Source of the DNA: a virus
DNA length: 43,259 nt
IMG/VR virus record: IMGVR_UViG_3300007363_000035
Span: 1-43,259 of that record
Strand: one strand, 5' to 3'
The notes beneath the pieces were generated by a model. That model made no database searches and was not told the origin of the DNA. It worked only from the letters and a program-made list of their open reading frames with translations. The position numbers were made by a program, and so were the translations under genes. The stretch's first letter is position 1; each line of letters begins with the position of its first letter. Of the stretch, positions 1-40,217 are shown piece by piece.

Positions 1-564
1 TTTCAGTACGGATGTAAAACCCATTTCCACAGTGTCACCCAAGTTGGTCCACAAGGCATGGTTTAAGTATCCACGATCACGAAGACTATCTATTAGATAT
101 TTGCGATGCGGGCGCAGGCGGCCATTTAAAAACAAAAATTCATAAGGTCGGTGTGTCTTGTAGTCCAGTGCGGCTTGCATCTGAGCATGTTTGTTTTCTG
201 TGTATTCTACAATGTTAGAGAAGTAGCAGTCGGTTTGGCAATAATTCCAGCCTGGTTCCAAGTCACCCGATGTTAGTAACCCAATGCGCCCGTCCCGCAC
301 ATGCTGGGCAATGCGTAGCCTTTGAAGTTGCAGCAGTATGGTTTCTGATCCTTCGGCTGGGTTTGAAAAGATCACACGTCCAGGATACTGTGTGGCCCAG
401 TCGGTGATGGTCTTCCAATTTTCTTTCAACAGCACCCGCCCCACAATGTAGATGTTGGCAGGGTCCAGTTCAGGCAGTTGCCAAAAACTTGCGTCGGCCC
501 AGGGTCTCAGCAGATCCCAAACTTCGGCCCATTCGTCTACCACGAGTTTATGTGCGCCTAGCAT
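1..564 (-). CDS. Conserved hypothetical protein, partial (C-terminus off the left edge)
   Basis: This reading frame is open for 188 codons and leaves the window at base 1, so its C-terminus is missing. I do not recognise a defined domain. The most distinctive stretch, near residues 142-152, reads FLFLNGRLRPH and is followed by an Arg/Lys-rich helix and the segment ALWTNLGD. From memory, similar motifs occur in uncharacterised proteins of marine phages, often near glycosyltransferase genes, but that is not evidence of function. The chosen ATG lies inside the end of the upstream radical SAM gene (17 bp overlap) and has no clear ribosome binding site. A GTG at 543, just after that gene's stop, is an alternative start. 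As the last visible member of the accessory cluster, it probably shares the transcript of the glycosyltransferase, sulfotransferase and radical SAM genes. Confidence 0.75.
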   Translation of the reverse strand, partial: MLGAHKLVVDEWAEVWDLLRPWADASFWQLPELDPANIYIVGRVLLKENWKTITDWATQYPGRVIFSNPAEGSETILLQLQRLRIAQHVRDGRIGLLTSGDLEPGWNYCQTDCYFSNIVEYTENKHAQMQAALDYKTHRPYEFLFLNGRLRPHRKYLIDSLRDRGYLNHALWTNLGDTVEMGFTSVLK

Positions 565-1942
565 GTGATTCACATTCGGCCCAGAAACTCTTCATTTCAG
601 GAAATGCACGCAAAAAGTCTGTGCCTCTACGGCGATCGTGTTCTGCAAAGAAACGATAAAAGTCTGCCCGAGCCACTGAGTTGTCCTGCCGTTGTCCCTC
701 ACGCATCCAGGCAATGTCTCTGCGCAGGCGCTGTACTTCATAGTCGCGGAATCCGTGCAAGTCTGTTGTTACTTGACTTTCCATCCAGTCTGCACAGTGT
801 TCTAACTTCTGAGCATAACTTTCAGGCAGGATCTGCAGGCTTTGCCACGCAGGCTGTCGCAGCACTGGTGTGTCAAACCACACACGTTGATAGGTTTCAC
901 TGTAGCTTTGACGCAGGCGCAGGATCCATTCCATGTACTCGCGAAAGCCCGACACTGAAAGATTGTTCATTGTGATAATGAACGTTAGACTGTTGCGATG
1001 GGGCACTTCAGTTAGATACTGATTGACATTGCTGAACACACGATCAGCACTCATGCCATGACGTATGTATTCGGCCTGAAATCCGTTGCCTGAGTCCAGG
1101 CTAACATACTGCATGAAGTGTTCTATTTGGGTATTGCACAGTCGTTTAACGTAGTCTAGGTATCGTTCAAACAGTGTATCTTCCACTGAAAAGTTCGATG
1201 TTACGTTTAGGTGCAAGTCAGGCTTGGGCAAGTCCAACACATAGTCAAACACTCTGTAGGTGTTGCGATCCATCAAAGGTTCGCCACCAGTCATACGGAA
1301 ATGCTTCAGCTGAGGGTAAAGCGTGGGCCACCACTGCCAAAATGCGTCCACATACGGATTGTTCTCTCGAACTGGGATAGGTTTGCGATTACCGGTAAAG
1401 TGAGAAGGATCATTATGAACACGGCTAGTCGGGTATCCTCCCAACCTATCAACTTCGTCAGCCCATGAGCTACTAAACTGAGGACTACAGTAACTGCACT
1501 TAAGGTTACAAGCGTGATTAAAGTTAACCTCCACGTAACTGGGTATGACATCATCCTCATCTCCAGTTGAATTGCGTATTTTTTCAAAGTCCACAGCGGC
1601 CCAAGGCTCGCCACTGCGATAATGCCTATCGCTTAATTGCCCAAGGTCTTCCATGTTCCAGCAGTACTGACATTCGCTAGGGCGCTGCCCAGCCAACATT
1701 AGTTTACGTTGCTGCTTCTTGTAGTCGGTATTGTGCAGGCCACCTGTGCGTTTTAAATCTTCTACTGATATTTGGTGCAAGGGAGGATGATAACATGAGT
1801 TGTTGAGTCCTGTTGGTAGGTGCAAACTGACCTGTTTCCATTTGGCTAGACACAAGGCGGCCCCCAAATGAGTTTTCATGAGTTGCGCCGCACTTAGAAA
1901 CTTGCTTTGCGTCCCCACTGACTCATCGCCTTTGTTATTCAT
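548..1942 (-). CDS. Twitch-type radical SAM protein (464 aa)
   Basis: This is a radical SAM enzyme that would cleave S-adenosylmethionine with a [4Fe-4S] cluster to start radical chemistry on an unknown substrate. The cluster motif CX3CX2C is at C145, C149 and C152 (CNLKCSYC), and the SAM-binding GGEP motif is at residues 219-222. An N-terminal Cys-containing region (C31, C50, and the pair C91/C94 in CQYC) precedes the barrel. This arrangement is typical of the twitch-domain radical SAM family found in phages and marine bacteria, whose substrates are mostly unknown. The ATG follows a GGGA-like ribosome binding site and overlaps the sulfotransferase-like gene by 8 bp, which points to translational coupling. 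The partial gene after it overlaps by 17 bp. I see nothing that ties it to queuosine synthesis or to nucleotide reductase activation. The class is secure; the reaction is not. Confidence 0.9.
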   Translation of the reverse strand: MNNKGDESVGTQSKFLSAAQLMKTHLGAALCLAKWKQVSLHLPTGLNNSCYHPPLHQISVEDLKRTGGLHNTDYKKQQRKLMLAGQRPSECQYCWNMEDLGQLSDRHYRSGEPWAAVDFEKIRNSTGDEDDVIPSYVEVNFNHACNLKCSYCSPQFSSSWADEVDRLGGYPTSRVHNDPSHFTGNRKPIPVRENNPYVDAFWQWWPTLYPQLKHFRMTGGEPLMDRNTYRVFDYVLDLPKPDLHLNVTSNFSVEDTLFERYLDYVKRLCNTQIEHFMQYVSLDSGNGFQAEYIRHGMSADRVFSNVNQYLTEVPHRNSLTFIITMNNLSVSGFREYMEWILRLRQSYSETYQRVWFDTPVLRQPAWQSLQILPESYAQKLEHCADWMESQVTTDLHGFRDYEVQRLRRDIAWMREGQRQDNSVARADFYRFFAEHDRRRGTDFLRAFPEMKSFWAECESHARRT

Positions 1943-2579
1943 TTTGTCCCAAATGTGCTGATGTGAATTTCCAAGTGCCTAATTGTTGTTGTACAAAATC
2001 TAAATTTGAAAACATCTGCGGCAGCGGAAAACTAAATTGATTTTTTTGATATAATTTTTGTTGACTAAAATTCATAGTCTCATAACATAATCTAAAGTCA
2101 GGCAAAAAATATTCGTCTAACATTTGCTCAAGTTTGAATTGATCAATATCTTCTTTTTTGGCAACTATTTGGCCAGGTTGTAATCTGGTTTTTTGTTTAC
2201 TATGATTGTGCCAACCGTGAAGGCCTGTGGGATCTAAAACTCTAAAATACATCCAACTAGCAAACTGCAAAACTAGATCTTTGCGTTTGATATTGACCAA
2301 TACACATCGTTTTTTTATTTTTTCAACATTTTCTGCCAATACCATTTTTGGAGTAAGTTGAACAACATGCCCCACAGCAAAAACTTTGCAATCTATTAGA
2401 CTGTGTATATCTTGCCATGGATCATTGCAGTAACCAGTCATACAAATTTCCCCAAAATTCTTTGCCTTAGATAAAACAGCAATCTCTTGCCCCAATGCAT
2501 GAGTGCCTGTTCTTGGCGCCGCAAGAATTAATATTTGCTTGTTTGTGTCTTGAGCTGTTTGAATTATTTTGTCTAGCAT
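1935..2579 (-). CDS. Sulfotransferase-like protein (214 aa)
   Basis: This is a probable PAPS-dependent sulfotransferase, which would move a sulfate group to a sugar or other acceptor in the cytoplasm. After a beta strand (ILILA), residues 20-30 read AAPRTGTHALG, the pattern of the 5'-phosphosulfate-binding loop. Further on, near residues 107-120, the stretch NIKRKDLVLQFASW has the Arg...Ser layout of the 3'-phosphate-binding site. At 214 aa it is short for the family, so the acceptor side may be reduced. The gene starts at an ATG one base past the glycosyltransferase stop region, with an AAGGC ribosome binding site, and overlaps the radical SAM gene at its end. It is strikingly AT-rich compared with its neighbours: bases 2041-2100 have 12 G+C in 60, while 1261-1320 in the radical SAM gene have 29 in 60. 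Recent transfer is plausible. Other P-loop kinases are a less likely reading. Confidence 0.75.
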   Translation of the reverse strand: MLDKIIQTAQDTNKQILILAAPRTGTHALGQEIAVLSKAKNFGEICMTGYCNDPWQDIHSLIDCKVFAVGHVVQLTPKMVLAENVEKIKKRCVLVNIKRKDLVLQFASWMYFRVLDPTGLHGWHNHSKQKTRLQPGQIVAKKEDIDQFKLEQMLDEYFLPDFRLCYETMNFSQQKLYQKNQFSFPLPQMFSNLDFVQQQLGTWKFTSAHLGQNE

Positions 2580-2580
2580 G

Positions 2581-3504
2581 TTACCAGCCTTCTTGTTGCC
2601 TGATTACATCTATTTCACGAGTCATGACACCGCGATTGCGCCAGTCGCTACGATAGTGATATTTGAAAAATGCTGACTGTTCACTTTCCATAATGGCCAT
2701 GGGCAGATCCAGCTGAGTGCCTAATTCTGGCCCCAGTTGATTGGCCAAAATACGTGGATTAGAATCTTTTACTGTGTCCCACAATTTACTTAATTCATGA
2801 AAATCTTGAACTTGAGTATGATCCCAATTGGTCAACATGGTCATATACGTGCCTTGGCGTGCGCCGGCCATGGCCCATTCGCCATGTTCGACATCGGCAC
2901 CTATGTTATGCCATATAGTGAGATTATCAAGATTGCGTAATACTTGAGTTTTGAATCGTTCGATGCTGGGCTTGATGCCTTTTTGCAAACACATCTTGAC
3001 GCCTTCGCGAAAGCCTGCACGCCAGGCATGATAAGGCGACTGGTTAGGATATGTTGTTGAGTAGCAGTCATACATGGCCCAGTACAAGGGATCAAAACAG
3101 AATTCAACTTCGGTTTCTGCACGCCCGTCGGTGGCTTCGTGCGTGCGCATGTTCTCAACAAAAGTTTTAGTCCACGAACTCAATCCGCCATTGCCATACA
3201 TCAATCCGTTGACATGGTTGCGGGCACGCCAACGAAACACAGCCTTTTCATACTCTAGCGTAGGGAGAACCAGAGTTTGATTAAAAAACGCTGGATCGGG
3301 GATGTTATCACCGTCAATGAGTACAAAACGTTCTGTGTCACTGGCCCGGGCAGCTGCCTTGTGTGCTGCGTCACTGCCCTTGACCCCGTCCACTCGTCGG
3401 GCCCAGGGAACCATGTTTTTAATTTTTACCCAAAATTCTTCACGTTGTGGTTCATCATAAGTCAAGTAAATGCAGTCTAAATCTGCTATATCAATCTGTT
3501 TCAT
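2581..3504 (-). CDS. Putative GT-A-type glycosyltransferase (307 aa)
   Basis: This is likely a nucleotide-sugar-dependent glycosyltransferase of GT-A-like fold. The N-terminus (residues 9-16, LDCIYLTY) looks like the first strand of the Rossmann-type nucleotide-binding half. It leads to a DGDN motif at residues 64-67, which has the position and form of the metal-binding DXD motif. A conserved-looking segment with MYGNGGLSSW follows. The frame is open upstream to a TTG at 3546. I prefer the ATG at 3504 because GGAG stands 11 nt before it and because it gives only a 14 bp overlap with the upstream small gene. Donor and acceptor are unknown. With two further GT-A-like genes and a sulfotransferase in the same run, a surface or virion glycan is the natural target, but that is inference. 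Confidence 0.72.
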   Translation of the reverse strand: MKQIDIADLDCIYLTYDEPQREEFWVKIKNMVPWARRVDGVKGSDAAHKAAARASDTERFVLIDGDNIPDPAFFNQTLVLPTLEYEKAVFRWRARNHVNGLMYGNGGLSSWTKTFVENMRTHEATDGRAETEVEFCFDPLYWAMYDCYSTTYPNQSPYHAWRAGFREGVKMCLQKGIKPSIERFKTQVLRNLDNLTIWHNIGADVEHGEWAMAGARQGTYMTMLTNWDHTQVQDFHELSKLWDTVKDSNPRILANQLGPELGTQLDLPMAIMESEQSAFFKYHYRSDWRNRGVMTREIDVIRQQEGW

Positions 3505-3823
3505 AAGTTTGTTTGCTCCATCGTTGGTGCGGTTCGGTTTCTGCAACCACTATGGCTACATTGTCAGAATGACACGGTGTTCCTGTATCACTAGGTACTA
3601 GTTTTACAACAGTTTTCCAAATTTTTTCTACTAATTTACCGTCACATACTCGCACATGCATGGAAGACCGAGCAAATGTTTCCGAGTCGATCTCAATGTA
3701 TGTACCAGGCAAGTCTTCCATGCTGTAGAATAACGGAACCCCATCCTGGTGATATAATCTAAAAAACACCGGCTGGGGCTCAGGCATAGCATGTAATATG
3801 CTCCAAAATTCATCTATTTGCAT
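3491..3823 (-). CDS. Small conserved hypothetical protein (110 aa)
   Basis: I do not recognise a domain. The protein starts MQIDEFWSILHAM and is rich in aromatic and charged residues in its first half. Its central part (MHVRVCDGKLVEKIW) is beta-like, and the C-terminal part reads PSDTGTPCHSDNVAIVV. No signal peptide or membrane segment is visible. The frame is open to a GTG at 3856, but the ATG at 3823 gives the 14 bp overlap with the preceding glycosyltransferase gene that is common in this cluster, so I chose it. Its position between glycosyltransferase-like genes, overlapping on both sides, suggests co-translation and a role linked to them, such as a partner subunit. Function unknown. Confidence 0.65.
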   Translation of the reverse strand: MQIDEFWSILHAMPEPQPVFFRLYHQDGVPLFYSMEDLPGTYIEIDSETFARSSMHVRVCDGKLVEKIWKTVVKLVPSDTGTPCHSDNVAIVVAETEPHQRWSKQTYETD

Positions 3824-4595
3824 GGCGTAAATCTTTAACGTGGTAATGAAATGCACCCCATTGTGTCATTGTGTTTACTCTCATCATGTAATTTTTAAAT
3901 TCCCAAACCAATTCGTCTTGCCATGATTCACGATGGGTTCCAGCAATATGTCGTTTCATGTGTACTATTCTTGGATAATCAGCAAATGGCATGGTACACA
4001 GTTCTGGCCCAACAATATTGGCAGCCATGGCATATACAACATCAGTTGACGGCACTTCTTCAGGAAACTTTAGTAATTTTCGATATTCTGTCCAGTTTTC
4101 AAATATATTACGTACTGTGCTAAAAAACTCTTGTGCAGTTTCTGACCTACGCCAGTATGTAATAGCATTGTAAACGTCAGGCAAGTTGTTGGCATCAAAT
4201 ACTTTTCGATAGTGACGTGCGGCAGCCCGTTGGTCTTTCCAATCTCTACAACCAGTGCTGACAACAATGTCTCGATTTCGAAGCATGTTCCACCAGTGAT
4301 CAATGTGACTGGTAATCATCATGTCGGCTTCTAGTTTGATTGTTTCTCTAAATGGTGTAGCTTGAAACACCTGCCAGTCGTTGGCATAAGGGTTTTCTGC
4401 CAACGGATAAGGAAATTGGTGTACGTAATCAAACAACACATCTGTACCAACTTGCTCGTTAGTTAACAAACATATTTGTGCATCTGGGTGCCAATATTTG
4501 ATTGTTTTGGCCAAGGTGCGAGCACAATCAATGTAATTTACATCTTTGCTATTCTGTGCTACTATCAAGTAGCCTTGTTCTGCAATCGGTTTCAA
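3810..4595 (-). CDS. Putative GT-A-type glycosyltransferase, paralogue of the upstream gene (261 aa)
   Basis: This is probably a glycosyltransferase-like protein of GT-A fold. Its first strand (GYLIVAQNS) and the segment IKYWHPDAQICLLTN look like the nucleotide-binding half, and EADMM near residues 89-93 sits where a DXD metal site is expected. It aligns by eye with the next gene upstream: both have an [RW]RRS[EN]TAQ[EY] segment followed by a helix ending in NW..YR and then an Asp before a hydrophobic helix. The two are therefore tandem paralogues. The predicted start is a TTG at 4595, supported by AGGGGA about 7 nt upstream. A second TTG at 4568 is possible; no ATG fits. It overlaps the upstream gene by 47 bp. 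The replacement of the first Asp of DXD by Glu may mean altered metal use or loss of activity. Confidence 0.68.
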   Translation of the reverse strand: MKPIAEQGYLIVAQNSKDVNYIDCARTLAKTIKYWHPDAQICLLTNEQVGTDVLFDYVHQFPYPLAENPYANDWQVFQATPFRETIKLEADMMITSHIDHWWNMLRNRDIVVSTGCRDWKDQRAAARHYRKVFDANNLPDVYNAITYWRRSETAQEFFSTVRNIFENWTEYRKLLKFPEEVPSTDVVYAMAANIVGPELCTMPFADYPRIVHMKRHIAGTHRESWQDELVWEFKNYMMRVNTMTQWGAFHYHVKDLRHANR

Positions 4596-5397
4596 CGATT
4601 TCCCCTAAATGTTTTTTTCCCATGGCATGAAAACTGTATCCTGCGATTGACATCTGATAAGGTTTACTTTGGGAATCAATGTACTCTAATCGGTAGTGAT
4701 CTTGATCTAATTTTTCTAATTTAGTATCGGGCATTACACTGGCCAACGGCCATGGTATTTCATTAACTTTAAATGTTTGTCCACTTACAATACCTATTGC
4801 AATACTTAATGCAAAGTCATTACGATACGTTGCTTTTTGAATTCCATACAAGTCCCTGTAGTGTTGCCAATTATTTCGTATCATGTTCATGCAATCAAAT
4901 ATGTATTGTGCGGTATTTGATCGTCTAAACATCATTACGGTTGCCCACCACATGGGCAATTTGTGTTGCCCAAAATAGTTTAATTCATCTAAATATCCTT
5001 GATTATCGTGTGACCTGTTAGATAGATCAAACGCCAATCTATGACACATGAAATCTGCGTGATTCCACAGTTGATTTAAATCACTGTCTGCTACTACATA
5101 GTCGGCATCGAGTACAAGCGTATGATCCCAGGGACTAAGAGCGTAGGCATCGGTTCTACCAGCGTTGTGCCACGATACAGTTTTTGCATAGTCCTCAAAA
5201 TAACGTGTTCCTCCTGCGGCAGGTAAGGCTTTGATGACTTGATCAAATCTTTTATCTGACTCCGCGTCTTCTTGGTCGGTGACAACAGCCACTGGAATGT
5301 TGAGGTGCCTACGAATGTTTTGAGCCGACCAAGCAGCCATTTCCAAATAGTCTGTTTGTTCATTGTTGAAGGCAAATATTAGTGCGCCGCGTGTCAT
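4549..5397 (-). CDS. Putative GT-A-type glycosyltransferase (282 aa)
   Basis: This is a likely nucleotide-sugar glycosyltransferase. It opens MTRGALIFAFNNE, a Rossmann-type first strand, then has IPVAVVTDQ, and a clear LDADYV motif near residue 105 that matches the DXD metal and nucleotide-sugar site. After it comes a region (MWWATVMMFRRSNTAQ) shared with the next gene downstream. The frame is open back to a TTG at 5433, but the ATG at 5397 forms a classic ATGA overlap with the stop of the preceding 101-aa gene, so I set the start there. Of the three glycosyltransferase candidates in this cluster it has the best-preserved DXD motif. The acceptor is unknown. Confidence 0.72.
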   Translation of the reverse strand: MTRGALIFAFNNEQTDYLEMAAWSAQNIRRHLNIPVAVVTDQEDAESDKRFDQVIKALPAAGGTRYFEDYAKTVSWHNAGRTDAYALSPWDHTLVLDADYVVADSDLNQLWNHADFMCHRLAFDLSNRSHDNQGYLDELNYFGQHKLPMWWATVMMFRRSNTAQYIFDCMNMIRNNWQHYRDLYGIQKATYRNDFALSIAIGIVSGQTFKVNEIPWPLASVMPDTKLEKLDQDHYRLEYIDSQSKPYQMSIAGYSFHAMGKKHLGEIVETDCRTRLLDSSTE

Positions 5398-5699
5398 CTT
5401 TTTTTCTGGTTTTGCTCGTGTTCTACTAACCAAGCGTTCATTTGTTCTTGCCAGCGTTGTTGACTTTGAGCATATAACTCTTTGGTGTCTACTCGGATTG
5501 GATTTTCATATAGGTCTAACAGCACTGCTTCTGCGCCTGAACAAGTCAACAGTGTAGTTTGTAATTCAGGACCAGCACGCCACATACCGCCAGCATAAGC
5601 AAACAGCATTTTGGCTTGATATTTTTCTTTGAGCGTTCGTTTGGCTGCTTCGTGATCAAAACGTGCTCGTGCGTGAGCAATTAATGCATTAGTATCCAT
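5394..5699 (-). CDS. Conserved hypothetical phage protein (101 aa)
   Basis: This is a small, mostly helical protein of unknown function. It starts MDTNALIAHARARFDHEAAK and has a central FAYAGGMWRAGPEL segment and a Gln-rich C-terminal helix (QSQQRWQEQMNAW). From memory, similar proteins occur in T4-like phages of aquatic bacteria as conserved hypotheticals, so it may belong to the phage core rather than to the accessory cluster. It is the first gene after the terminator and is coupled to the glycosyltransferase gene by an ATGA overlap. There is no ribosome binding site. Its ATG lies 6 nt after a TACAAT -10 box, so its mRNA may be leaderless. Confidence 0.75.
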   Translation of the reverse strand: MDTNALIAHARARFDHEAAKRTLKEKYQAKMLFAYAGGMWRAGPELQTTLLTCSGAEAVLLDLYENPIRVDTKELYAQSQQRWQEQMNAWLVEHEQNQKKR

Positions 5700-5704
5700 G
5701 CTTT

Positions 5705-5733
5705 ATTGTACAGGAGTTTTAGGTAAAAGTAAA
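5705..5733 (-). promoter_or_regulatory. Sigma70-type promoter candidate for the accessory cluster
   Basis: Read on the minus strand, TTTACT (5733-5728) and TACAAT (5710-5705) are separated by 17 bp. This matches a host-type promoter with 4/6 and 5/6 consensus bases. The -10 box is identical to that of the strong promoter at 37682. The ATG at 5699 starts 6 nt after the -10 box, so the transcript would begin at or next to the start codon. The -35 box overlaps one arm of the terminator hairpin. Confidence 0.5.
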
Positions 5734-5750
5734 GGGGCTGTTGCCCCTTT
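5731..5750 (-). terminator. Intrinsic terminator hairpin (probably bidirectional)
   Basis: The arms AAAGGGGC (5731-5738) and GCCCCTTT (5743-5750) pair perfectly around a 4-base loop. On the minus strand the hairpin lies 4 nt after the stop of the 320-aa structural gene and is followed by a T-rich stretch (TTTACTTTT). It therefore should end transcripts of the fibre genes before the accessory cluster. On the plus strand it also has a short run of T. Confidence 0.8.
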
Positions 5751-5754
5751 TTGG

Positions 5755-6717
5755 TTAAGCTGTTGTAGCCGCCACAGTTGGTGTGCCCCAACTGGCTGAT
5801 GTTAGATAAGTTGTTGCTGGTGGGTAATAGGTAACAATGGTACAAGGAGCTGTGCCAGGGGTAGCGCCTGAGGCCGCTGTGCCGCCCGAAATTGCGTCGC
5901 CGTCCGATGCTGACCAAGTAGTAGTTATGACCAGTTGTGTGCCTGCTGTTGCTGTCTTGGCTTGATGTTGGATGTAGTTATTAGTATAAGGTGCTGTGTC
6001 AGCAAATTGCTTGTAGAGTATTTGATCGCTAGTAGTCAAATTGTACCAGCCTAGACTTGTTTGTAGTGAAGCAGGAGTTCCAGTCCCGCCAATTTTGGTT
6101 ACACCGGTGTATGACGTGGCTGCTATGGTATGTGCAGTGCCTGCTCCGGAAATCCAAATGTCGCCACACAAGGTGTTAGCTAAATCGTTCCATTCTGGAT
6201 CACCTAAAGCACCTGTGGAGGTTTTGCTTACATCTATTTTGATCAGGCCGCCGCCATTGAAAAAATAACGAGCCGCGTTGGCAGAAGACCAGGTAATGGT
6301 ATTTGTAATTGTGATTGTCCATGTAGCGCCCGATGTAGCTGCGGTTTTAGAATTTGTACCCGTCCATCCAGTATTTTGAGAACCTATTGCTACAGCGTTG
6401 TTTCTATTGGTAGTAATGTTTGTCAAGTCGGTATTAACAGCCGAAAGTACACTGATCAATGTTCCAGCAGTAGGGGCTGCTCTTGAAGTGATTGAAGTAT
6501 TGGTTTGACTGCCCATGCTTGCAATTGTATTGACCAAACTAGCCCATTGTGTAGCAGTTACAGTGCCAGCGGCGCTGACAGTGGCCAATGCACTTTGTCC
6601 CCAACCTTTATCGCCGGATCCGGTGCTCCATAGATCATTAACGTTTGCTCCTGATGTGGTGCTAACAAATCCGTTGTAGTCTGTGGCTTGAATTAGGCCG
6701 CCTGATGAATAAGTCAT
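5755..6717 (-). CDS. Virion structural protein, fibre-like (320 aa)
   Basis: This is a probable tail-fibre or other virion protein. It is very rich in Thr, Ser, Ala and Gly, has few charged residues, and is composed of short beta-type segments (for example TWTITITNTITW and TQLVITTTW), typical of phage adhesin or fibre parts. An N-terminal segment carries GWGQSAL and WASLVNTIASM. From memory, proteins with this composition and these motifs occur in T4-like phages of aquatic bacteria. The ATG at 6717 has AGGAAC about 8 nt upstream and lies 15 nt after the stop of the large fibre gene, so both share one transcript. A terminator follows its stop. Which fibre it belongs to cannot be told from the sequence. 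Confidence 0.72.
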   Translation of the reverse strand: MTYSSGGLIQATDYNGFVSTTSGANVNDLWSTGSGDKGWGQSALATVSAAGTVTATQWASLVNTIASMGSQTNTSITSRAAPTAGTLISVLSAVNTDLTNITTNRNNAVAIGSQNTGWTGTNSKTAATSGATWTITITNTITWSSANAARYFFNGGGLIKIDVSKTSTGALGDPEWNDLANTLCGDIWISGAGTAHTIAATSYTGVTKIGGTGTPASLQTSLGWYNLTTSDQILYKQFADTAPYTNNYIQHQAKTATAGTQLVITTTWSASDGDAISGGTAASGATPGTAPCTIVTYYPPATTYLTSASWGTPTVAATTA

Positions 6718-8499: not shown

Positions 8500-8507
8500 T
8501 ATTTATA
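8500..8507 (-). promoter_or_regulatory. Late promoter -10 box (TATAAATA)
   Basis: On the minus strand this is a perfect match to the T4 late promoter box, 18 nt before the ATG of the 582-aa fibre gene and with AGGAAA between. It overlaps the stop codon of the 201-aa gene. It would be read by host RNA polymerase carrying the gp55-like sigma factor encoded at 37716. Confidence 0.75.
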
Positions 8508-9274: not shown

Positions 9275-12200
9275 TTATTCACCGCGCAAGAACCTTGCGG
9301 CTAGAGTATTGGTATCTTGCAGAGCTACACCGTCACTGGCAGTTGTTTCTCCTTGTTGATACCAAGTCACGCCCTGGCGTACCAAAATAGTCACTTCGCT
9401 ACCAGCAGCTGGTGCTTGCAATACAGGATACACAGCGCCATCTACTACAAATTCAATGGTTACTGGGTCAAACTGGCTTAAGAACCAGCGATATTGGCTA
9501 GTTGCAGAAGTATCGCTGTATTTGTATTGCCGTACTCCCCCAACGTAGACTTCGATTGACAAATTTTCTGTTGAGCTGTCGTCAAAATCAGTAACGTCAA
9601 TGCTTGGTGCATAAAATACGCTGGTTGTGCCGTCTCCCATGCCGGTGTCGCTTACAATGTAATCTTGATATCGTTGATCTAGTAAATTACCGCGCCCAAT
9701 ATCATAGACATTTGCTCCTGCTGTGTGGGTAGTAGCTGCGGTTCCTGCGGTACCACGCAACAGACTGCTAACGGTGTTGAAAGCCGTGTCTCTGTAGCGG
9801 TACATGATCCGTTCGCCATCGATGGTAATTACCCCAAACACTCCTAGCTCAAGATTAGGTTCGCTCAGCGCAGAAGCATCTGTTACATGAATAGTATCAG
9901 CAGAAGCACTGAGATCTTGACTTAGTGTAGTTGAGGTTGCAGCAGTAATTCGATATGTGGCTTGTACCCCCCGCATGTCTTGGAATATTCTAAAAGCCAT
10001 GGATTCTGGAACTACGCTGTCAGTAAACATGGTCACCGCAAGAATTTGTCCAGGAGCAATGGGGCCTGCGGCCAAAACCAAAGTTGCACTTTCGAGGGTT
10101 GACCCGTCATCTTCAACTGTAAAATCGGCTCCCTCAAACAATCTATATCCATCTAACGTTACCCACAAACGTCCAGCATTGACACTAGTACGATTCAATA
10201 AAAAATCATTACTGTAGACTGCGGTACCAACGGAATAATCATATGACCCAGGATCTCCTGAAACAGTTGCAGCATCATAAACTGTGCTGTCATACGGTTC
10301 GGCGATGGTCAATCCACTTACTATAGGTCCATTGAATATCAGGGTCACTGGATTTTGTTGTGCTGTGTCATTCCAAGTGGTTACAGTAAACACATCATTT
10401 AGGTTTACTCCTGAAGAAATTTGTAGTGTTTGTCCTATTGCTCGATAATCTGCTTCGGTACTCACACTGATCAATATTCTAGCACCACTACGTGGAGGAT
10501 CAGTAAACACCACTTGACGCCCAGGTGTGTTTGATCCTGACCAGTTAGTTACGCTGTAGGTTCCTATGATGGCGCCAATACTTTGTACTTGTAGTATATT
10601 GTCCACCCAGACCTGGATATCGTTGGGAGCATCAATAATGCTTTGGCTGTAGCCGCCACGTTGAGGTAACCCAAAACTCACCTCAACATTATCACCAATC
10701 CATTCAATACCTTCAGGTGGTTGTAGTCGCAATCCATTGCGTGTGACCACCATGTTGGCAGAATTACTGCCTTGCATGCTGTTGATTAATGTAATCACAG
10801 GTGTAGCTACCATGTTTGCATCAGCTACCTTGTACTGTGTCTGTGGAGTGCTCCAACTGTAGTCAATTGTGGCTGTGCCCGTACCTGTGCCTGCGCCTGT
10901 AGCAGTAAAAGTTACTCCCACTGTGTTTTCGGCAGCACCTATTGAAACAAAATCAGTGGTGCCAAGTGTGGCAATGGTATATTGGTTGCCTTTGATAAAA
11001 TAACCAGCTTCAACTGTGGTCAAGCCAAATGCTACTAGGGCAATACCTGATCCTGGGCCGTAACTGGTGCCAAGATCAACTTCGCTTGCAAGTGTGGGCA
11101 CAAAATTGATCCAGTAGTCTGTGTTAGTAATAACAACTCCAGGTGGCACATTCTGCTGTGCGCGGTAATAATTGCCACTGTTGTTTACAATGTCTAATCT
11201 TGAATAACTATTCAAAATATTCCAGGCAGTGCTGTCAATATAAGGTGTCCAAGTGATGCCACTAACTGACTCGCCATTCACAAACACATAGACATCACTG
11301 ATTTCTGCGGTGTTTACTGGAATTATAACAGTGGCGCCAATGTCTCCGCCAAGGTAATTGGCACGATACAATTGACTGCCGCCGCCTAGCTCGTACACCG
11401 AAATGTTCACAATATCGCCTGCTGTCACAGTCAGTAATGTGATTGTGTAATCGTCCCAGTCGATGGTAAAATCAGTGCCTGGCACAAGATCTATTCCAGT
11501 GGTAATATTACTGACCAACACCTGCACTGGATGTTCGACAACACCTGCCCAACTCAAAGTTGAAGTTACAGCAGGTTCGTATGTGTATCGTATGGTTCCC
11601 AGTTGGAATCCATGTCCGTCACGGCTCCAGTCGGCACCCGATCTAGTGTACACACGCATGTCTAGCGTGTCAAATTCTGCACCATTGACTAACTCTTCAG
11701 GCGCATGTCCTTCATAAACATCAACAAACTGGCCGCCGTCAACATCAATATCTGTGGGCAAAGTTCCTAAAGTAGTGTCAGTAAATTCGCTTTGATATTC
11801 TGCATCAACTGCAAGTGGGTCTCCTAAGAAATAATCTCCATACACTTGCACACCGGGATAATCAACCCCGTCAATTAAAAGCGGCAATTCCAATCCGGGT
11901 TCACTTACTCCGGGAACATATAAGCCCATGGTGCGATCAACACCTGTGAGACCTTGGCCGTTGTTGTACGTTCCAGCGTTTACTAAAGTCCAATCTTCAA
12001 GATTAAATTCAGGGCCCACAACGGCGGTTGAATCTGAGCTACTTGCTTGCCACACTCTATCATCGTAGCGAACCAAAGTGCCGTCTTGGTAGGTACCATT
12101 TGGGCTCCAAGTTTGAACATCACTGAAGTACTGGAATCTATCATATTTGATCACAGTGCGAAAGCTTCTAACTAGATTATAGTTGTTTTCTGCTCCAGTT

Positions 12201-15200
12201 TGTTCAGTATTAAACGTTTCGCCGGTACCTGACCCAATTAGATGCACATAGGCTCGTACGCCTGTGCCGTTACCACCGCTGAATTCAACTGTGGGCGTGC
12301 TACGATATCCTTGACCAGGATCAGTTATTGTGACTGCTACTACCTGGCCCAAGCTGTTGATAACCGCTGTACCTTGTGCTTCTACTACAGCATCGCCCAC
12401 AAACGTCACTTGAGGTGGTTCATTATATCCTGATCCACCATCAACTATTTGTACATTGTCAATATTCAATAGATAATTTGTATACCATTGTGAGTAAGGC
12501 CATGTTTCCCATATTGTACTTGACGCAGAAAAATCACTTTGAGTATTGATACCAGCATTAAAACTTGTAGAGTGTTCATAAGGCAACAAGATTGGACTGG
12601 TATATTTTGCTACTTGCAAATCGGTGTTAAAATATGCTGGCAAATCAAAGTCTGTATTGTCTCCAAATGCCTGATCGTTACCAGTATACTTCAAATTGAA
12701 TTCTCTAATGCTCACATGATATGGCTTGACTTCTTGAATATAGTCTGCCACAAATTCTTGGTTGTCTCGACGATAGTTTTGGAACGGTAGCAGTTCTCGA
12801 ATTCTATGGTCTACATCAATCAAAGATGTTTTAACTAACCATTCGGGTGCTGAGAATTCGCTCAATACAAAGTTAAACATCAGCACCAAGGACCGGTTAC
12901 GTTCAATAGCCAGGTCGTCGATAAACAACTCTTCATTGATGGCTTGAATAATCTTTCGAGTTTCTATCACTGGCTCTTGATCATAGTACTGTGCATCAAA
13001 TACTTCAAGATCAAATCCAAATCTGCCCAGTGCATAATCCCACAGCTCTGCTGAGAATTTAATAGTGCCATCTTGTAACACCACACGTTCCCATCCGGTG
13101 TCAGTGCTCAGATAAATTTCGTACTTGCCCTGGGCATTGGCTGTAACTTTAACCGAGCTGCCAACGTCAACTGTGAGCGTACTCAACGCTGCGTAGTTTG
13201 CAACTTCTGTGATTACCTTGGTACTGGGGTTGTATCCTGGGCGGTTCCATACAATGTAACTCCAGTAGTCTGGGGTGTTGTATCCTTGCACACTGGTCAG
13301 CACCAACACACGTTGTCCTGCTGTAACGTCACTGTTTTGTACAGTGTAAATGGTCCACAGACCTCGATTGTCGCTGTCAGAAACCACTAGGTATTTGTAA
13401 CCAATGGGTATAGGACCATTGGGATTGCTCCAAATTGGTTCTTGGAATCCTAGTATTTCTTGAGTTGCCACACGCAGATTCCAGTTGGTTACTGTTACCC
13501 CATTTACTACTGTTATTTGACTCGGCTCAGGTTCGCTGGAATTCAGCAAGTTAAAGATTCTTGTTTCAACAATAGGGTATTGTGCTAATATTGCATTAGC
13601 TTTAGTGAGATAATTCTTGAGTGCGGCAAAACGATCCACAAACATGCTTTGTCTTGGACGGAACTGCACACCATAACGTTCGGCTGGACTTAGATTAGGG
13701 TCCGGCACCAAATTACCAAAAGTGTCTACTCCACAAAAACTATCTAGGAATTTTCGGTACAGATTTGAACTTAAAAACCCGTCTGCGCGATCCTGTGGAA
13801 TTAATTCATATTCCACGTGAACATTGTCATTGGTCAACTCACGATCAAACTCAATGCTGATAATGGTGTCACTGGCTTCAATATAATCAGCACTATTATA
13901 CAGTGCAATGGTACTGGCATTGATAGGTGCCATGTAGGCTATGCCGCTGGCACGAGGATCTTGAATGTATGATGCTACAGTACTAGCTGGTAATGTTTTA
14001 CCCAGTTGTGTGGCAGTGACTGTGATGCCTCGTACCCAAAAATAATATTCAGTAGCAAATGTTCCGTCTACGGTAAGTTTAGTATTAACAGTATAAGACG
14101 CAGTATTCAACGGTACGCCTTCGCCGGTGTAGCTGCCTGGTGGTTGATCACTGACTACCCACTGATACACATCAACTTCGCTGCCCGGGAACAACTGTGC
14201 CCAGCGTCGACTTGCGTACACTATTGAATCTTGGTTAGGATCAATAAATCTTAACGAACTAACGTCCCACCACAATTCGCCTATATGTTCTGCGCCCCAG
14301 GTGGTTCCTGTGATATTTACAAAACCAACATTGTAGGATGCAGGATCTACAGCACCAATGTAGTCAAGATTCTGTCTAGCGGCTCCTAGTATTCTACCTT
14401 GCAACGGATTGATAAAATCTAAAAATTCTGACTTGGCACTAGTGATACGATCGTACAAAAATACACTGTTCAATAAACGAATGTCTACTACAGGCTGCTG
14501 TTGTCTTAGCACTGTCCACGACGGTGTACGAGTAGCGTTTTCAAATACAAATACTGCGCCAAAATCAGCAGTACTGTCACTGTAGTCGTTTTTGGGTGCG
14601 CCGGCCATGAGCACACCAGAAGTATAGTTTACTGCTGTGCCAAAACCATCATATGGTGCAACATCTGCATTGTTGATCTGTTGTCCAAAAACAAATTTGC
14701 CCGGATTGGTTATCAATAGTGTTGAGCTAGGGAGATAATCGTATGTGTATACTGATCCACTCTGTACAATAATTGAAAAGAAAACAGTACTGCCAGCATC
14801 AAAGAAAGTGGTTCCATCGTCAAATTCTGCTTCTAGATATAGCGTACCTTGTGGTGCGCCTACCACAAGGTTGACCGCAGAATCATCAATGCTTAAACTG
14901 GCACCAAATCCTGCATATTCTGTGGGATATGGACTGGTGATTGTTTGAGTCCAAACAAATGTTTCAAACCCTAAATCGTCAAATGTTGAGCCTATGGTAC
15001 CGGGTGCTACTTGAAGTTTATTAAATTCTGGAGCAGCATCGGAGTTCTTCACGCTGAGCGTTAAATATCCAGCGGCATCAACTGTGGCCAATACGTTTAA
15101 TACCGACAGTGAAATTTGTTGTGCTAATGCACGAACTTCTACACTGGCCAACACTGTAGTTGACTCTAATTGAGTCCAATAGGCTGTATTGGTCAATGCT

Positions 15201-18200
15201 GTAAATGCAGGTACATTTTGTATAGAAACGTAGATTTGTGCAGTACTGCCACTTGTGTTGTAGACCACAGTGTTGACGTCGTATCCAGTGGATGATGACC
15301 AAGACCCAGGTACTACAACCTCAATGTTGTTTACACAAATAGTATCGCCGTTGTCAAGGTCGGCCATGGGTATGGTGCTGGTAATAGTACCATACACGCG
15401 ACTTTGGTTAACAAAACGCTCAACTACGCCACCTTTGAAAACTTGTTGACTACTCTGTGGCTCTCCTACATACAAACTACAGTTGTTGCTGCAAATGTCT
15501 GTGGCTTGACCAAAGTTTGAGAACTCGGCTATAATGTTTTGGTCAATTTCTTGAACCTGCTGAAATTGATTGGTTTCTATTTCAATTATGTCACCTGTGA
15601 CCAAGTCAGCATTTATAGTAATAATGTTACCATTTACAGTGAATGTATTGATTAAGCCTGGACCGGCATCTACACTGTTTTGTTGATTGATCAAAAACTG
15701 ACCGTTCAGCAACACGCTTACTGGTCCAGTGACTGACCCAAGCACTGTGAAATCAATTGTGCTGCCGTCGGTACCATAGATAAATTTTTGAACACTGCGG
15801 TCAAATACATAAGTTGACCCAGCTTCGGTGAAAGTTTCAACTTCGTTTACTGTTATAGTCAAATTATTGACGCCGGTTCCGCCCAGTGATGTTCCTAGAA
15901 TAGTTATAGTATCATTGACTGCGTAGTCTTGCCCACCACGTACTACTGTTACTACATATGACGAGTCACTTCGACTAACATCAAATTTAGCACCAAATCC
16001 TGACCCAGATGTGCTGTACTGACTGAGATTACTGTAAGCAGCCGAGCCTGCTGCTGCCAATCCCGTACTGCTCACTGTGTCAATGGCATTTGCTATGGCT
16101 TTGTAAGGTGTACCAATCAATACCTGGCGTCCGTCTGTGGTGCAGCATACACTGTGTCCAAATCTATCTCCGGCAGTGAGTCCACCCGTGACATCGCTAG
16201 AGTCAATAGTGTAAACATAAGTAAAATATTCTTTGGCAGACACAACCAAGATGTCTGCACTGATAAATGATATCAAAAATGTTACCGTTGTGCCGGCAAA
16301 CGTATAATCAAGGTTGGGTCGTAGTAGATTACCGTTTAGTTTGATACTGAATGAATAAATGTTATCAGTTTCTACTGTGGCCAAGCCCAATCTACGACCA
16401 TTGGCGTCTAGATCATCTGCTAAGTTTTGTGTCACAGCAGTGTATGGAATTTGATAACTGTTGTATCTTGCAAATTCAATCAACGTTTCTTCTAGCACAG
16501 TGCCCGAGCCCGTAGCTGATCCAGTAGCGGTAAAGGTAACACCCACTGTGTTTGAAGCAGCGCCTATTGAAACAAAATCTGTGGTACCCACAGTTAGAAT
16601 AGTGTATTCTGTTCCAGGTACAATAGCGGTGGCATTAACCAGCCCTGGAGTATTAATAAAAGTCACTGTATTAAGATCAGTAATAGTGTAATCTACTCCC
16701 ACTGTTTGAACCTGTCTGTTTAGAGTGACTTTCAATTGATATATGTTGTCAATTTGAATTGAATTATTGATATTCCAGGATTTAGTTGACCCGTCGGCAA
16801 ACACCTTTAATTGCTGCTGTTGCCAATCAACCTGACCATAGGCATGTACTTGATTTGCACCTGGTGCTCCTACATATATCCAGCGTTCGTCTTGGCTGAC
16901 TGCTACAGAATATCCCATTTCTCCTGCTACAGCACGATCTGGTGCTGTAGGCGGGGTTAACAATTGCCATGTGGTATAAGGAATGCTGCCTGGTTCGCCA
17001 AGAAGAGGATCTCGGAAAATTACAAAAGCATAGCCTACATTAGCAAGACTGGCGGTACCTTGACTGGCACTGGCTCCAGCGGCGGCCCAAGTTTGGTTGC
17101 CAAAATCAGCGGCGTTGCCCAAGCCTCTTACGCCGGTGGTTTCCACTGTAAGTATTGAATCGCTTGTGCCAATGGGGCTGACTGGTATGTATTGGTCTCC
17201 ATAACTTTTGACATATACATAAATCGCACCGTACTCTGTGCCAGAACCAAATCCATATCGGGGACTACCCACTAGAGCAGCCAGTCTATTGCGGGCTTGC
17301 GCCACACTGGCACCATACTGTTCGCCCGCATCTAGCAACACAGGATTCAATGAGATAATATCAGAAAATACACTGTTCTTTTGTAAAACTTCCCATAGGC
17401 CTGAGCCGTTGTTGTCTACCCAGACTTTGGCACCTGGTAGAATATTGTTGGCATATGGCAAATTGATCACATCGCTGGCCTGGTCCACACGCATAGTCTG
17501 TAAGGTGAATCCCAGTCCTAGTCCATTGGCTACCACACGATCGCCAGTAAAATTAAACGCTATATTCACTGTGGTCAAATTTGCCACTGATAATACCTGA
17601 TATACACCGTTAATTTCAGGGTCAAAGAATTTAATAATTAGTTTATTGCCTGCTGTCAAGCCATGTTGAGCGTTAAAAATCACACGGCTTGTGCCATCTA
17701 AGTTGTCGCAAACGTGCTGGATTACACCAGGTACAGCTTGGGCACGATATATGTTCCAGTCGTAAGAGTTGACCTTGGCCACCCATATACTGGTTCCCAC
17801 TTGAATAGCATCAATATTGGCAGCAAGGCTGGCTGCATTCTCAATGTCAAATACTGTGATATCAACATCTTCAAGATTTACATAACCAGCACTTGGCAGA
17901 GCCGTATCTGTTGGTAAGTCCGTGGTTACTGGCAAGATATCAGTGGATGTTAATGCAAAACTTTGTCGCCACACATTACTGAAGAAGATAGTTTGATCAG
18001 CTTCACTTGCCTGTTGTGGATAAATTACTTGTACTAAACTAGGATTGCTATCTAACAATGCGCGATTTAGCCTTAGTTCAAAGAAACTACGGTTTGCATT
18101 GGCACCATATACTGCACGTTGCACTGCCCAATTTTCATAGATGTCATAGTCTGCAGATTCTTTTCCAAGATTGGCTTGTTTGAATAGTTCTGCCGCAAGT

Positions 18201-21200
18201 ATAGTACCTTTAGTTCTAAGGAATTGTCGGTATACATTTACTTGACTAACATCGTCTAAATTCAACGCAGCCATGTATTGGCGAGGTTTAAATCCAATCA
18301 GACCATATGCCAACAAATCGTTGTCTGATTCAATATTGGCTGTGTTAATATTGTAGCTATTAGCTAGTTGATTGGCTTTGTTGGCCAAGTTAGGTAGTAA
18401 ACCTAGTTCAATTTGAGTGTAATCGCTTTGGGTCCAAACATTAAAATCAAATTTGTCGGTAGGTTGCACAATGGTCAGTGCTGACCAATAGACATTTTTA
18501 TATTTGACAATTTCGCCTTTGCTATAGGTTCGTAAACCAGTCCATTCTTGAACATTGTCTTGATTTAATATAAATCCTGGAGTATCAACACTTCCAGTCC
18601 AATCTGAGGTGGTAAGTGCCACCAAAGTCAACCGACTTTGTCTTGCGCCGGTCACCGGATCATAGATCAAATCTCCAAACACACTTTGATTGTTTAAAAC
18701 AATCATGTGTTCGTAATTGGTAAATCTCATATCAATATAACTGATAGCATCTAGATTTAATGGTTCAACAGAGAACCTATTGCCTAGTCTAACAATATTG
18801 AGTGAACGCTGTGGTATTTCTTGTGAATTTTGATTCAACAGCAAGTTTTCTGTGGTTTCGACGTTGATGCTATCAACCACAGCAAGTGGTCTAGTAATTT
18901 CTAGTTTGGCAGCCAGTGGATTAAGATTGATAATTGCATCTTGACCCCAGCCTTGCTGACTCCAATACAAAAATTCATTGATCATGCGCGGCCAATCTAA
19001 CACATAACCATTGGCGGTGTTGGTAAATGCCAATCCTTGTGTATCTAAAAGTTTACCGTAACTGGCCAAGAAATCACACACAGTAGTTTCGTTGCTGAAT
19101 ACAAATCCATATGGTACTTGTATCACAGTATCAGTGTAAAATGTAGGAATACGTACGGTGATACCACCCGAGCTGTAAGTAGCCAATTTGCCCACAGCCT
19201 GGCTTTGCAGAATGTTAAAATAAGGCTGCGAATTACCAAATCCAAACACAGCATAACCATTGGCAACTTTTTGCACAGCCACGCTACTGTATCTCACTTG
19301 ATCAAAAGGTTGATTCTTGTACAACAAAATGTCATAACTTTGATCAGGAATCAACAAAGCAGTGTTGGTTGAATTAGGACTAGATTTTTCTGTAAACAAC
19401 TTGATATATTGTTTGTCACTAAATGACGCCATACGATAGCACAATCGTACATCTAGATTTTTAAGATCCGCAGTCAATAAGTCAGTTGAATCAATGCCAG
19501 TCTGACGATTATAATCCACAATCCAATTGATATAACTGGCCTTGCTTGTACCATTGCCATATACTTCAACGCCGTTAGCGTCTAAACGATAGCGATCATC
19601 AAGTAGATATTGGTCGTAGTCTAAATTGTATCGATATCTATCACGATCAGCGAACAAAGCAAAAAACTTTGCTGGTCGTGTTACCGCCAGCACATGCATC
19701 ACAGAAAATGGATACGATGAACTATTGTACCATGATGCTTCAACCGGGCCGCCGTCGCCTAACGCCCAACTCTTAGAAAATTTACTGTTAAGACCTGTAT
19801 TCAAAGGAGTAAATCCTACCACAGAATTAAGCGGGCTCAATAAATTGCCTTCGCTGTCGGTAGGAATTACCGAGGTCAACCCTGGTCGCACATAATTTGG
19901 GACTGTGTAGGGTGCAACAGGATCAGCCACTAAACCAATTTCTAAATCGTCCCATAACACCAAGTTGTCAGAAGTGTAAGGGGCCGGACCATAACGATCT
20001 TGCCACCAGGCAGGCTCATCAGTTAATCCCAACATTTCCCACGGTGTTAGGCTAGGTTGTTCTGTATCGTAAAAATACCGATAAATTCCCCGCCAGGCAC
20101 CTAACAACGGTTGATTGTCAAGGCGATTGTTACTGCTACTGTAGTTGTAGGTAAATTCGTTGCTGGCCAAATAATTTTGCTGATTATAGTCTAGTTTATT
20201 CCATCCACAGTAGGACAAGAAATCACTATTAAAGATAGTGTTGATTTCTTCAAACGTGTATCCTGTGTCGCGAAACTGCCCAGGTAACACATCATCTATA
20301 GTGAGCGGCACTGGATTGTCATCTAGTTTAAGATTATTATAAATTCGTGTTTCAAATTCCAATAACACATCATCGCGAATGTCATCAAACACAGGAGTGG
20401 TACTACCATCATGGCCTAATATAAATTGTGCTGTTCCATTACTGGTTACCTGAGTGATCAACGCTGGTTTCCAAGAAGGATACAGTCCTAATTTGGTAGG
20501 TGTGTTAGGTAGAAAACTTCCATAAGTGGTGTTGTATTCATTGATCAGTATTATATCTCCTGGTACCAATGGAGACAACACAGTGATACGTGGACCGTCA
20601 GTGGCCACAGTATAGTCTGTACCTCGAGTTAACTGCTGACCATTGAGATATACCAAAAGACCAAGATAATTTTGAGTAGTAAAATCATACACCTGTACAG
20701 TATCAAAAACATTGGTGGTGATAAAACTCACAGTGTAAGAATTGCTGGCATAGGTTATACCAGCAGGAATCATGTCGCTCCAATAAAATGGTTGAGTATC
20801 TAGTTTGCCCAAGGTCACATTTTGTATAGCAGTATCAAGTACTTGTGCTGTGGTTTCAAATCCAAGGTTTTGAGTTAACACTGAATCCAGCATTTGTGCT
20901 TTAAATTTGGTATATTCGCGGCTGTTGTATTGCATAGCGGCAAAAATATTAAAGTCACTGCTACGCATGAAATATCCGGCCAGCGTCAATGGTGAGCTCT
21001 GTTGTAAGATAACTAGACCGTAAGGAATTATGTTGCCAAGATCTCGAGTGTTGTTGGCACCATTGACTGGACCTTGAAGAGTTTGCAGATTTTCGCAGAT
21101 GCTTTGATAATGAGTGCGAATAGTTCCCAGTGTAAACTCTTGTGAGTTTGAGTTTAACGGATTACTTTGCAAATTGTTAGGTACTTGATAAAATGCAACT

Positions 21201-38624: not shown

Positions 38625-40217
38625 ATGACTAGTCTATTTGTTGAAGATGATTCGTTGCAATCAATCAGAAATAAATTATCCAACCAGTATCAAGTTGAGT
38701 GTACTATTTTCATTGAAGAGATAGAAAATTCCCCAAGTTCTTTTTTATATAAAAAGTTAATACCGTTATACCAACCAGTATATCGTGCTCAACAACGCTT
38801 TGTTTTTTTTAACTTTGCGCCTATACAAAAAACAACATTAGATCACGTTATTGCAACATTACAATACATCGATATTTCTCCATATTTTATATTAGTAGTC
38901 ACTAATCAGGAATCAACTGCTTCCTATTTCAAATCGTTGCCTGAGCCTATTTCTGTAATCCTATCGTCTGAATCGTCTCATCTTCAAAAAAATATTACAG
39001 AAATAAAACCACTGTTCAATACTGATAAAAGAATGTGTGCCCATGCCTGGGCAGGACTGCATGTCAACCCCGATGGCACCACCAGATTATGCTGTGAAGA
39101 TCGTGATTTGATCAAGGATACTCAAGGTACGCCATATAACATAAAAACCACCGACATTTTAGACATCCTAGATAGTGAGCACATTAAAAAAGTAAGGCAT
39201 CAATTTAGGCAAGGAGTAACTCCGCCTGGGTGTAATAATTGTTTAAAAATAGAATCTGTCGGGGGGACTAGTAAAAAATCATTAACTCCATTCAAGTTAG
39301 AAAATATCTACGGCAACATCAATTGGGAATCTGATTCAATTGACTCAATGGGATGGATTGGCGGGCATCTCGGTAATCTATGCAATCTCAAATGCAGAAT
39401 ATGTAACGAAACTTATAGTTCTAGCATTGCTGCTGAAAAAATAAAATTTAGCTTGTATGAAAACAAAAAACAAGATCCAGTGTATAAATTTTTTGCCAAC
39501 ACCTGGGCTGACTACAGCAATACATTTTATAGCAACCTAAAACAGATAGTCCCGCCAATTAAAAATTTTGAATTTCTAGGAGGGGAGCCGTTGTTGATGT
39601 TGGAGAATATCAAATTTATGCAACACCTAATAGATTCTGGGATTAGCCAGGACTGCATATTTGAGTTTGTTACCAACGGAACACAATATCCAGAAATTTT
39701 TGATCATGCTGATAAATTTAAACGGTTAACTATAACAGTAAGCATTGATAACTTAGGCAAAAGATTTGAGCTTGAAAGATCTGGTGCGTCATGGAACATT
39801 GTGGAAACTAATTTAGAAAAATTAATCAATCGAAAAAATTCATGTAGTTCAATGAAAATAGGAGTTAGTATAACTGTGAACATACAAAATGTATATTATT
39901 TGCCTGAACTAATTGCATGGCTTACCAGCAAAGGTATCAGTCACTACTACTACAATTTCCTATCTACTCCATCTTGGCTTAGCCTCAACGGCCTAACAAG
40001 CAATGCCAAAATTATAGTTTTAGATAAATTGCTATCGGCAGAGTTACCTCAACAAGATCAAACAATGTTAGCAACAGTAATACAACAGGTGCAACAATCT
40101 GCCACGTCTAACGGCCAAAAATTTTGTGCGGAAATGAAAAAATTAGATGCCATTCGCTCACAAACTTTTAATTTGACTCACAAAGAGATTGCAGAAGCAA
40201 TGGGATACATGCTATAA
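38625..40217 (+). CDS. Second twitch-type radical SAM protein (530 aa)
   Basis: This is a radical SAM enzyme with CX3CX2C at C253, C257 and C260 (CNLKCRIC) and GGEP at residues 319-322. A second Cys set precedes the barrel: C138, the pair C156/C157, and C203/C206 (CNNC), within a segment CAHAWAGLHVNPDGTTRLCC typical of twitch radical SAM proteins. The first 130 residues are an extra domain that I do not recognise. The gene lies between the gp55-like and gp47 genes, which are adjacent or close in many T4-like phages, so it looks inserted. It is AT-richer than its neighbours: bases 39721-39780 have 19 G+C in 60, against 33 in 60 at 42601-42660 in gp46. Its substrate is unknown. It shares only the family, not close sequence, with the radical SAM protein at 548. 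Confidence 0.88.
   Translation: MTSLFVEDDSLQSIRNKLSNQYQVECTIFIEEIENSPSSFLYKKLIPLYQPVYRAQQRFVFFNFAPIQKTTLDHVIATLQYIDISPYFILVVTNQESTASYFKSLPEPISVILSSESSHLQKNITEIKPLFNTDKRMCAHAWAGLHVNPDGTTRLCCEDRDLIKDTQGTPYNIKTTDILDILDSEHIKKVRHQFRQGVTPPGCNNCLKIESVGGTSKKSLTPFKLENIYGNINWESDSIDSMGWIGGHLGNLCNLKCRICNETYSSSIAAEKIKFSLYENKKQDPVYKFFANTWADYSNTFYSNLKQIVPPIKNFEFLGGEPLLMLENIKFMQHLIDSGISQDCIFEFVTNGTQYPEIFDHADKFKRLTITVSIDNLGKRFELERSGASWNIVETNLEKLINRKNSCSSMKIGVSITVNIQNVYYLPELIAWLTSKGISHYYYNFLSTPSWLSLNGLTSNAKIIVLDKLLSAELPQQDQTMLATVIQQVQQSATSNGQKFCAEMKKLDAIRSQTFNLTHKEIAEAMGYML

Follow-up and report, generated by a model that had tools for sequence, protein, structure and literature searches.

A conserved operon of glycosyltransferase-like and radical SAM genes beside the tail-fiber genes of uncultured phages and its tentative role in sugar decoration

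The viral DNA analyzed here (IMG/VR record IMGVR_UViG_3300007363_000035, 43,259 nucleotides; hereafter, the window) carries at its left end, next to tail-fiber genes, the first part of a long, conserved operon of glycosyltransferase-like and radical S-adenosylmethionine (SAM) genes that is cut by the contig end. Seven minus-strand open reading frames (ORFs) fill positions 1–5397, and U101 (5394–5699) is the eighth gene of the run and part of the operon. With the gene starts that relatives support, neighboring genes overlap by 4 nt (U101/GTa), 47 nt (GTa/GTb), 14 nt (GTb/U121), 14 nt (U121/GTc), 8 nt (STF/rSAM1), and 17 nt (rSAM1/P1), with a single 1-nt gap between GTc and STF. The original prediction described seven overlapping or near-touching genes on one strand whose products may act together; the run is real, and joint action is supported by relatives, with the set staying together in 106 non-redundant contigs. 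We tentatively favor, with slightly less than even confidence, a soluble pathway of the phage in which a carbamoylated amino-sugar, tailored by radical chemistry, is made and attached, most likely to the virion fibers and otherwise to the host surface. The phages bearing the operon form a large group of uncultured jumbo phages, and its product is probably an unusual sugar coat.

When IMG/VR was scanned, rSAM1 gave 260 and GTa 177 candidate stretches with relatives, of which the best 80 of each were used; ORFs of the kept stretches were clustered, and removal of redundancy at 95% left 106 loci. Because the two scan anchors differ, co-occurrence can be read without circularity: GTa, GTb, and GTc were all present in 73 of 73 rSAM1-anchored loci with enough sequence, and rSAM1 was present in 49 of 51 GTa-anchored loci. 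Gene order is nearly invariant (U101-GTa-GTb-U121-GTc-[cargo]-rSAM1-P1-rSAM3-rSAM2-rSAM2-rSAM4-c14-carbamoyltransferase), and 899 of 899 core genes run in the same direction. U101 adjoins GTa in 93/93 loci, GTa adjoins GTb in 103/103, and U121 adjoins GTc in 92/97. In 93 of 96 loci, rSAM1 comes after GTc with no more than eight genes intervening; this interval is empty in 36 of 93 loci and holds 1–6 cargo genes in the other 57. Medians of the ratio of nonsynonymous to synonymous substitution rates (dN/dS) range from 0.07 to 0.17 across the operon genes (excluding STF), indicating purifying selection, and the ORFs are therefore real genes rather than chance reading frames. The check proposed originally, a search for the same gene set and order in related phages, thus found co-occurrence instead of genes that never appear together. 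Conserved order and strand extend across many contigs, which, together with the conserved promoter described below, makes the operon hard to write off as passenger DNA and provides defined targets for tests.

The operon can be set apart from the tail transcript because a conserved terminator-like hairpin and a sigma70-type promoter lie between tailA, the final gene of the tail-fiber block, and U101. Of 93 non-redundant loci, 73% have the hairpin 5′ of U101 and 80% the promoter (≥9 of 12 matches), compared to 2% and 6%, respectively, in shuffled sequences; the shuffles preserve base composition only, and the loci, being related, are not independent trials. Such a hairpin was found in 0–6% of cases at 13 other junctions, and in the same relatives no promoter of comparable rate precedes GTa, GTb, GTc, or rSAM1. 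The case for this boundary is drawn from the relatives because the promoter scan of the window alone was unremarkable (22 found vs. 16 expected). In contrast to the operon promoter, the region upstream of tailB carries the T4-type late motif TATAAATA in 45 of 101 relatives and the motif ATAAATAT in 68 of 101. The operon is best read as a transcription unit separate from the late tail transcript, with a timing that we infer from these signals, and the separate promoter provides a concrete prediction on expression timing. Co-transcription with the tail genes was rejected because both boundary signals, terminator and promoter, are conserved, and the tie to tail-fiber expression implied by the original prediction is weakened accordingly. 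In three relatives (L042, L075, and L080), an inverted repeat with an operator-like look overlaps the sigma70-type promoter.

Three GT-A-like transferase candidates had been proposed, and these were strengthened to different degrees. In a profile search of the PDB, GTb matched glycogenin-1 (E = 0.003) over a region that spans its acidic motif, which supports a GT8/glycogenin-like identity, and it also matched phrog_1903 (4e-10). GTa is homologous to GTb (hhalign, 99.6%; dN/dS 0.11), whereas GTc is weakly GT2-like (best member 1.8e-4), without a Pfam family of its own or a useful match in the PHROG search. The acidic D/E-x-D motif of GT-A enzymes is invariant in all three alignments: D109 and D111 in 31 GTa sequences, E89 and D91 in GTb, and D78-G-D80 in GTc (mean column identity 69%). 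Relatives of GTc are encoded in at least 576 viral stretches; the family is abundant among viruses, yet neither Pfam nor PHROG has a model for it. The protein at 1–573, originally called unknown, is P1 cut by the contig end. A structure model of a full-length homolog (predicted local distance difference test score [pLDDT] 88) had mostly GT-B enzymes as its nearest PDB neighbors in Foldseek (E = 0.046 and above; POGLUT1 and SdgB at 0.046), and a giant-virus glycosyltransferase among viral models (1.5e-5); P1 is thus probably a GT-B-type transferase. In most loci, the small protein U121 (dN/dS 0.17) is flanked by GTb and GTc.

The twitch radical SAM enzyme of the original prediction was confirmed, with rSAM1 scoring 313.7 bits against NF033640 (curated cut-off, 170 bits). 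A second gene of this type in the window, outside the operon, scored 268.3 bits; it has a GC content of 35%, with a late-sigma gene on one side and on the other a gp47/SbcD-like gene. The cysteines of both clusters are shared by 12 twitch paralogs: C9, C27, C74, and C77 as well as C124, C128, and C131 are invariant, the CxxxCxxC motif and four twitch cysteines are aligned, and GGE(P) is invariant or nearly so. The twitch region matches BtrN (E = 0.0019), the twitch radical SAM aminocyclitol dehydrogenase of butirosin biosynthesis (PMC9012708), and several peptide maturases match weakly. BtrN and the operon enzymes both combine a twitch auxiliary-cluster domain with a radical SAM domain, but the twitch domain is C-terminal in BtrN and N-terminal here, where 7–21 NF033640 matches occur per contig among 20 long related contigs (130–349 kb; the majority of related contigs are fragments). 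The 21 matches on a single phage contig (L007, from G001; 346,856 bp) are striking. An open frame at 191531–192700 of G001 has a length similar to that of the second N-terminal twitch gene.

In relatives, the operon goes on past the point where the window ends, through P1, rSAM3, two rSAM2 genes, rSAM4, c14, and a carbamoyltransferase. The latter, read in one relative, has both TobZ/NodU domains (PF16861, 1.6e-48; PF02543, 3.7e-31), and one copy is present in 19 of the 20 long contigs. A DegT sugar aminotransferase is present in 18 of 20, adjoined, where read, by an NAD-dependent epimerase gene (PF01370, 2.3e-44). Because it combines aminotransferase, epimerase, and carbamoyltransferase genes with a BtrN-like twitch segment, the gene set points to sugar chemistry. 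The proposed building of a glycan gains from these enzymes, which fit glycan or nucleotide-sugar chemistry; its sulfated part is not supported as a general feature (see below). Cargo genes include a PfkB-type sugar kinase (L072). A c15-type gene has a weak DUF6071 match; an 'amidinotransferase' label for c28 and an SGNH label were both assigned by eye, and a c28-type gene has no Pfam match. A gene for a ThyA-type thymidylate synthase occurs in six of the 20 contigs (e.g., beyond the operon at L169), in several near the DegT gene, and a ThyX-like gene (by eye) occupies a similar place beyond the operon in L166 and L168. Two adjoining genes that by eye are fatty-acid desaturase-like lie at L164:1861–3331, on the G001 contig.

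Sulfation was rejected as an operon theme, STF being rare and its family unproven. STF is present in 3 of 93 non-redundant loci, which does not support sulfation as a general feature, and one scan for its relatives gave a single near-identical gene. Its GC content is 34%, compared to 48% in rSAM1. The sulfotransferase identity could not be confirmed beyond motifs recognized by eye (a P-R-S/T-G-T-H loop and an RRDKxxQFAS-like motif): no match was found in Pfam, NCBIfam, or PDB searches, and PF13469 matches elsewhere were all below cut-off. A structure model of STF (pLDDT 34.6) is too poor to judge a fold with a 3′-phosphoadenosine-5′-phosphosulfate site.

In the favored pathway, the NAD-dependent epimerase/dehydratase and the DegT aminotransferase would produce an amino-sugar nucleotide, which several twitch radical SAM enzymes would oxidize or rearrange via hydrogen-atom abstraction. 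The GT-A enzymes (GTa, GTb, and GTc) and P1-type enzymes would transfer the sugar, the carbamoyltransferase would cap its hydroxyls, and optional cargo genes would make the product differ between phages. The acceptor would most likely be a virion surface protein, probably the neighboring fibers, and the host surface ranks second, a preference based mainly on position and solubility. Three families of lipid-linked initiation or flipping (PF02397, PF00953, and PF01943), the only ones searched, were absent from all 20 long contigs, and the operon proteins show low hydropathy throughout, without strong hydrophobic stretches; a soluble acceptor is favored because of these two results, and O-antigen-type lipid-linked export is disfavored by the first. 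Several points weigh against this pathway. We infer its substrates, step order, and acceptor; GTc and P1 resemble known transferases only remotely; the export tests cover three families, and most contigs are fragmentary; and the sigma70-type promoter points to expression ahead of, or separate from, that of the late virion genes, a timing that does not single out a virion target. The stronger claim, that a jumbo-phage lineage encodes, within the conserved part of its genome, a complete pathway for a radical-tailored, carbamoylated amino-sugar that decorates its own virions, with swappable cargo altering the decoration, is tentative and somewhat unlikely.

Early expression, which the promoter permits, would also suit modification of the host surface (e.g., the lipopolysaccharide [LPS] core, from the cytoplasmic side) early in infection, blocking superinfection or altering receptors. 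The operon would then stay by the fiber genes so that fiber specificity and receptor modification are inherited together. The PfkB-type sugar kinase cargo fits such a role, and cyanophage S-CAM3 also has sugar genes, including carbamoyltransferase and heptose genes, by its tail fibers. However, lipid-linked modification on the periplasmic side would require membrane partners, and neither the three families (in the 20 long contigs) nor a strongly hydrophobic operon protein was found. We consider this explanation unlikely, and it is less probable still that the operon makes a small molecule or modified peptide, decorated by the transferases, with U101 or U121 as precursor or carrier. Many radical SAM/SPASM-type enzymes mature peptides, in line with the weak maturase matches, and both U101 and U121 are small proteins that few loci lack; however, the U121 alignment has no obvious leader or variable core, a transporter or protease is not evident in the core, and the twitch segment matches an enzyme acting on an aminocyclitol.

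DNA-modification genes are usually not late genes, which would agree with hypermodification of DNA by transferases and the carbamoyltransferase acting on hydroxymethylated bases, as in 5-carbamoyloxymethylcytosine. A TobZ/NodU-type carbamoyltransferase encoded in a phage genome, as here, does act on 5-hydroxymethylcytosine (5hmC), and such DNA-acting enzymes co-occur with a thymidylate-synthase homolog, mostly with Asp177, whereas carbamoyltransferases on unmodified contigs are flanked by genes such as glycosyltransferases (PMC8670742). Here the carbamoyltransferase is flanked by transferase and radical SAM genes, 14 of 20 contigs (all four of 320–349 kb among them) lack PF00303, residue 177 is Asn in 5/5 PF00303 sequences read, and no deoxycytidine monophosphate hydroxymethylase (PF00303 with Asp177) was found in the 20 contigs, other hydroxymethylation routes not having been searched; modification based on 5hmC is thus disfavored and DNA hypermodification very improbable.

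The features of the window are listed in Table 1. Upstream of tailA lie virion or baseplate genes, and a single 15-kb minus-strand gene (9275–24451; 5058 residues) occupies the position that the large virion structural gene has in phage Paride.

Table 1 Positions of the operon genes, boundary elements, and related features in the window
Feature	Position	Strand	Remarks
T4-type late promoter motif TATAAATA before tailB	8500..8507	-	contrasts with operon promoter
tailA, final gene of tail-fiber block	5755..6717	-	no match in family searches
Terminator-like hairpin AAAGGGGC-AACA-GCCCCTTT, then T-rich tail, 20 nt	5731..5750	-	kept in relatives
Sigma70-type promoter TTTACT-N17-TACAAT, immediately 5′ of U101	5705..5733	-	kept in relatives
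U101, operon gene 1	5394..5699	-	adjoins GTa in all non-redundant loci with both
GTa, GT-A-like transferase	4549..5397	-	ATG at 5397; longer TTG frame to 5433
GTb, GT8/glycogenin-like transferase	3810..4595	-	profile match to glycogenin-1
U121, small conserved protein	3491..3823	-	ATG at 3823
GTc, GT-A-like transferase	2581..3504	-	ATG at 3504
STF, optional cargo gene, family unproven	1935..2579	-	sulfotransferase-like P-loop motif
rSAM1, radical SAM with N-terminal twitch domain	548..1942	-	NF033640, 1.9e-93
P1, probable GT-B-type transferase, 3′ part lost at contig end	1..564	-	homolog model
Second N-terminal twitch radical SAM gene, outside operon	38625..40217	+	NF033640, 1.1e-79

Isolate phages searched with rSAM1, GTa, GTb, GTc, U121, and U101 gave no match, compared to 3387 records for a gp46-like control. 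Relatives of GTc in contigs binned as bacterial or archaeal show the tail-U101-GTa-GTb-GTc order, mostly with a radical SAM gene next (~25–60% identity in several), and these are probably phage contigs mis-binned into metagenome-assembled genomes. A GTc-GTc-radical SAM arrangement without tail genes (L178:9998–13162), on a Bdellovibrionia contig of 493 kb that also has genes of DUF58 and peptidase-S49 type, is an independent pairing. Isolated Vibrio phage K566 (L187; 255 kb) has three clustered radical SAM genes and two further matches nearby, and is a possible laboratory model for the family.

The tailC-tailB module is common to the window and phages Paride/PA5oct, Munch, Phosso, and Atu_ph07, and the gp46-like protein is 51% identical to that of Paride/PA5oct. 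In the stretches read, Paride and Munch have these tail genes without the operon cluster, whereas Phosso and Atu_ph07 carry radical-SAM-like genes soon after tailC-tailB, with weak similarity (E ~1e-4 to 2e-5). Literature searches for this enzyme combination found nothing usable. Glycans on virion proteins are known in mycobacteriophages (Freeman et al. 2023, cited in PMC12619734), a precedent for the favored acceptor, although the account read records no radical SAM, aminotransferase, or carbamoyltransferase array. Judging from the abstract and a text search of PMC12619734, the moraphages seem to belong to a different lineage. Clusters of sugar genes have been described in phages but lack an explanation: S-CAM3 has its carbamoyltransferase and sugar-nucleotide genes beside the tail fibers, as here, and larger cyanophages (P-SSM2, S-SM2, and S-SSM7) have LPS gene clusters in that position, with function unproven in each case. 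However, S-CAM3 showed neither a GTa-GTb-U121-GTc core nor an array of radical SAM genes. Cyanophages thus already offered examples of sugar genes and carbamoyltransferases next to tail fibers, and the novelty here lies in a transferase core of fixed order, an array of radical SAM genes, and a promoter separate from that of the tail genes.

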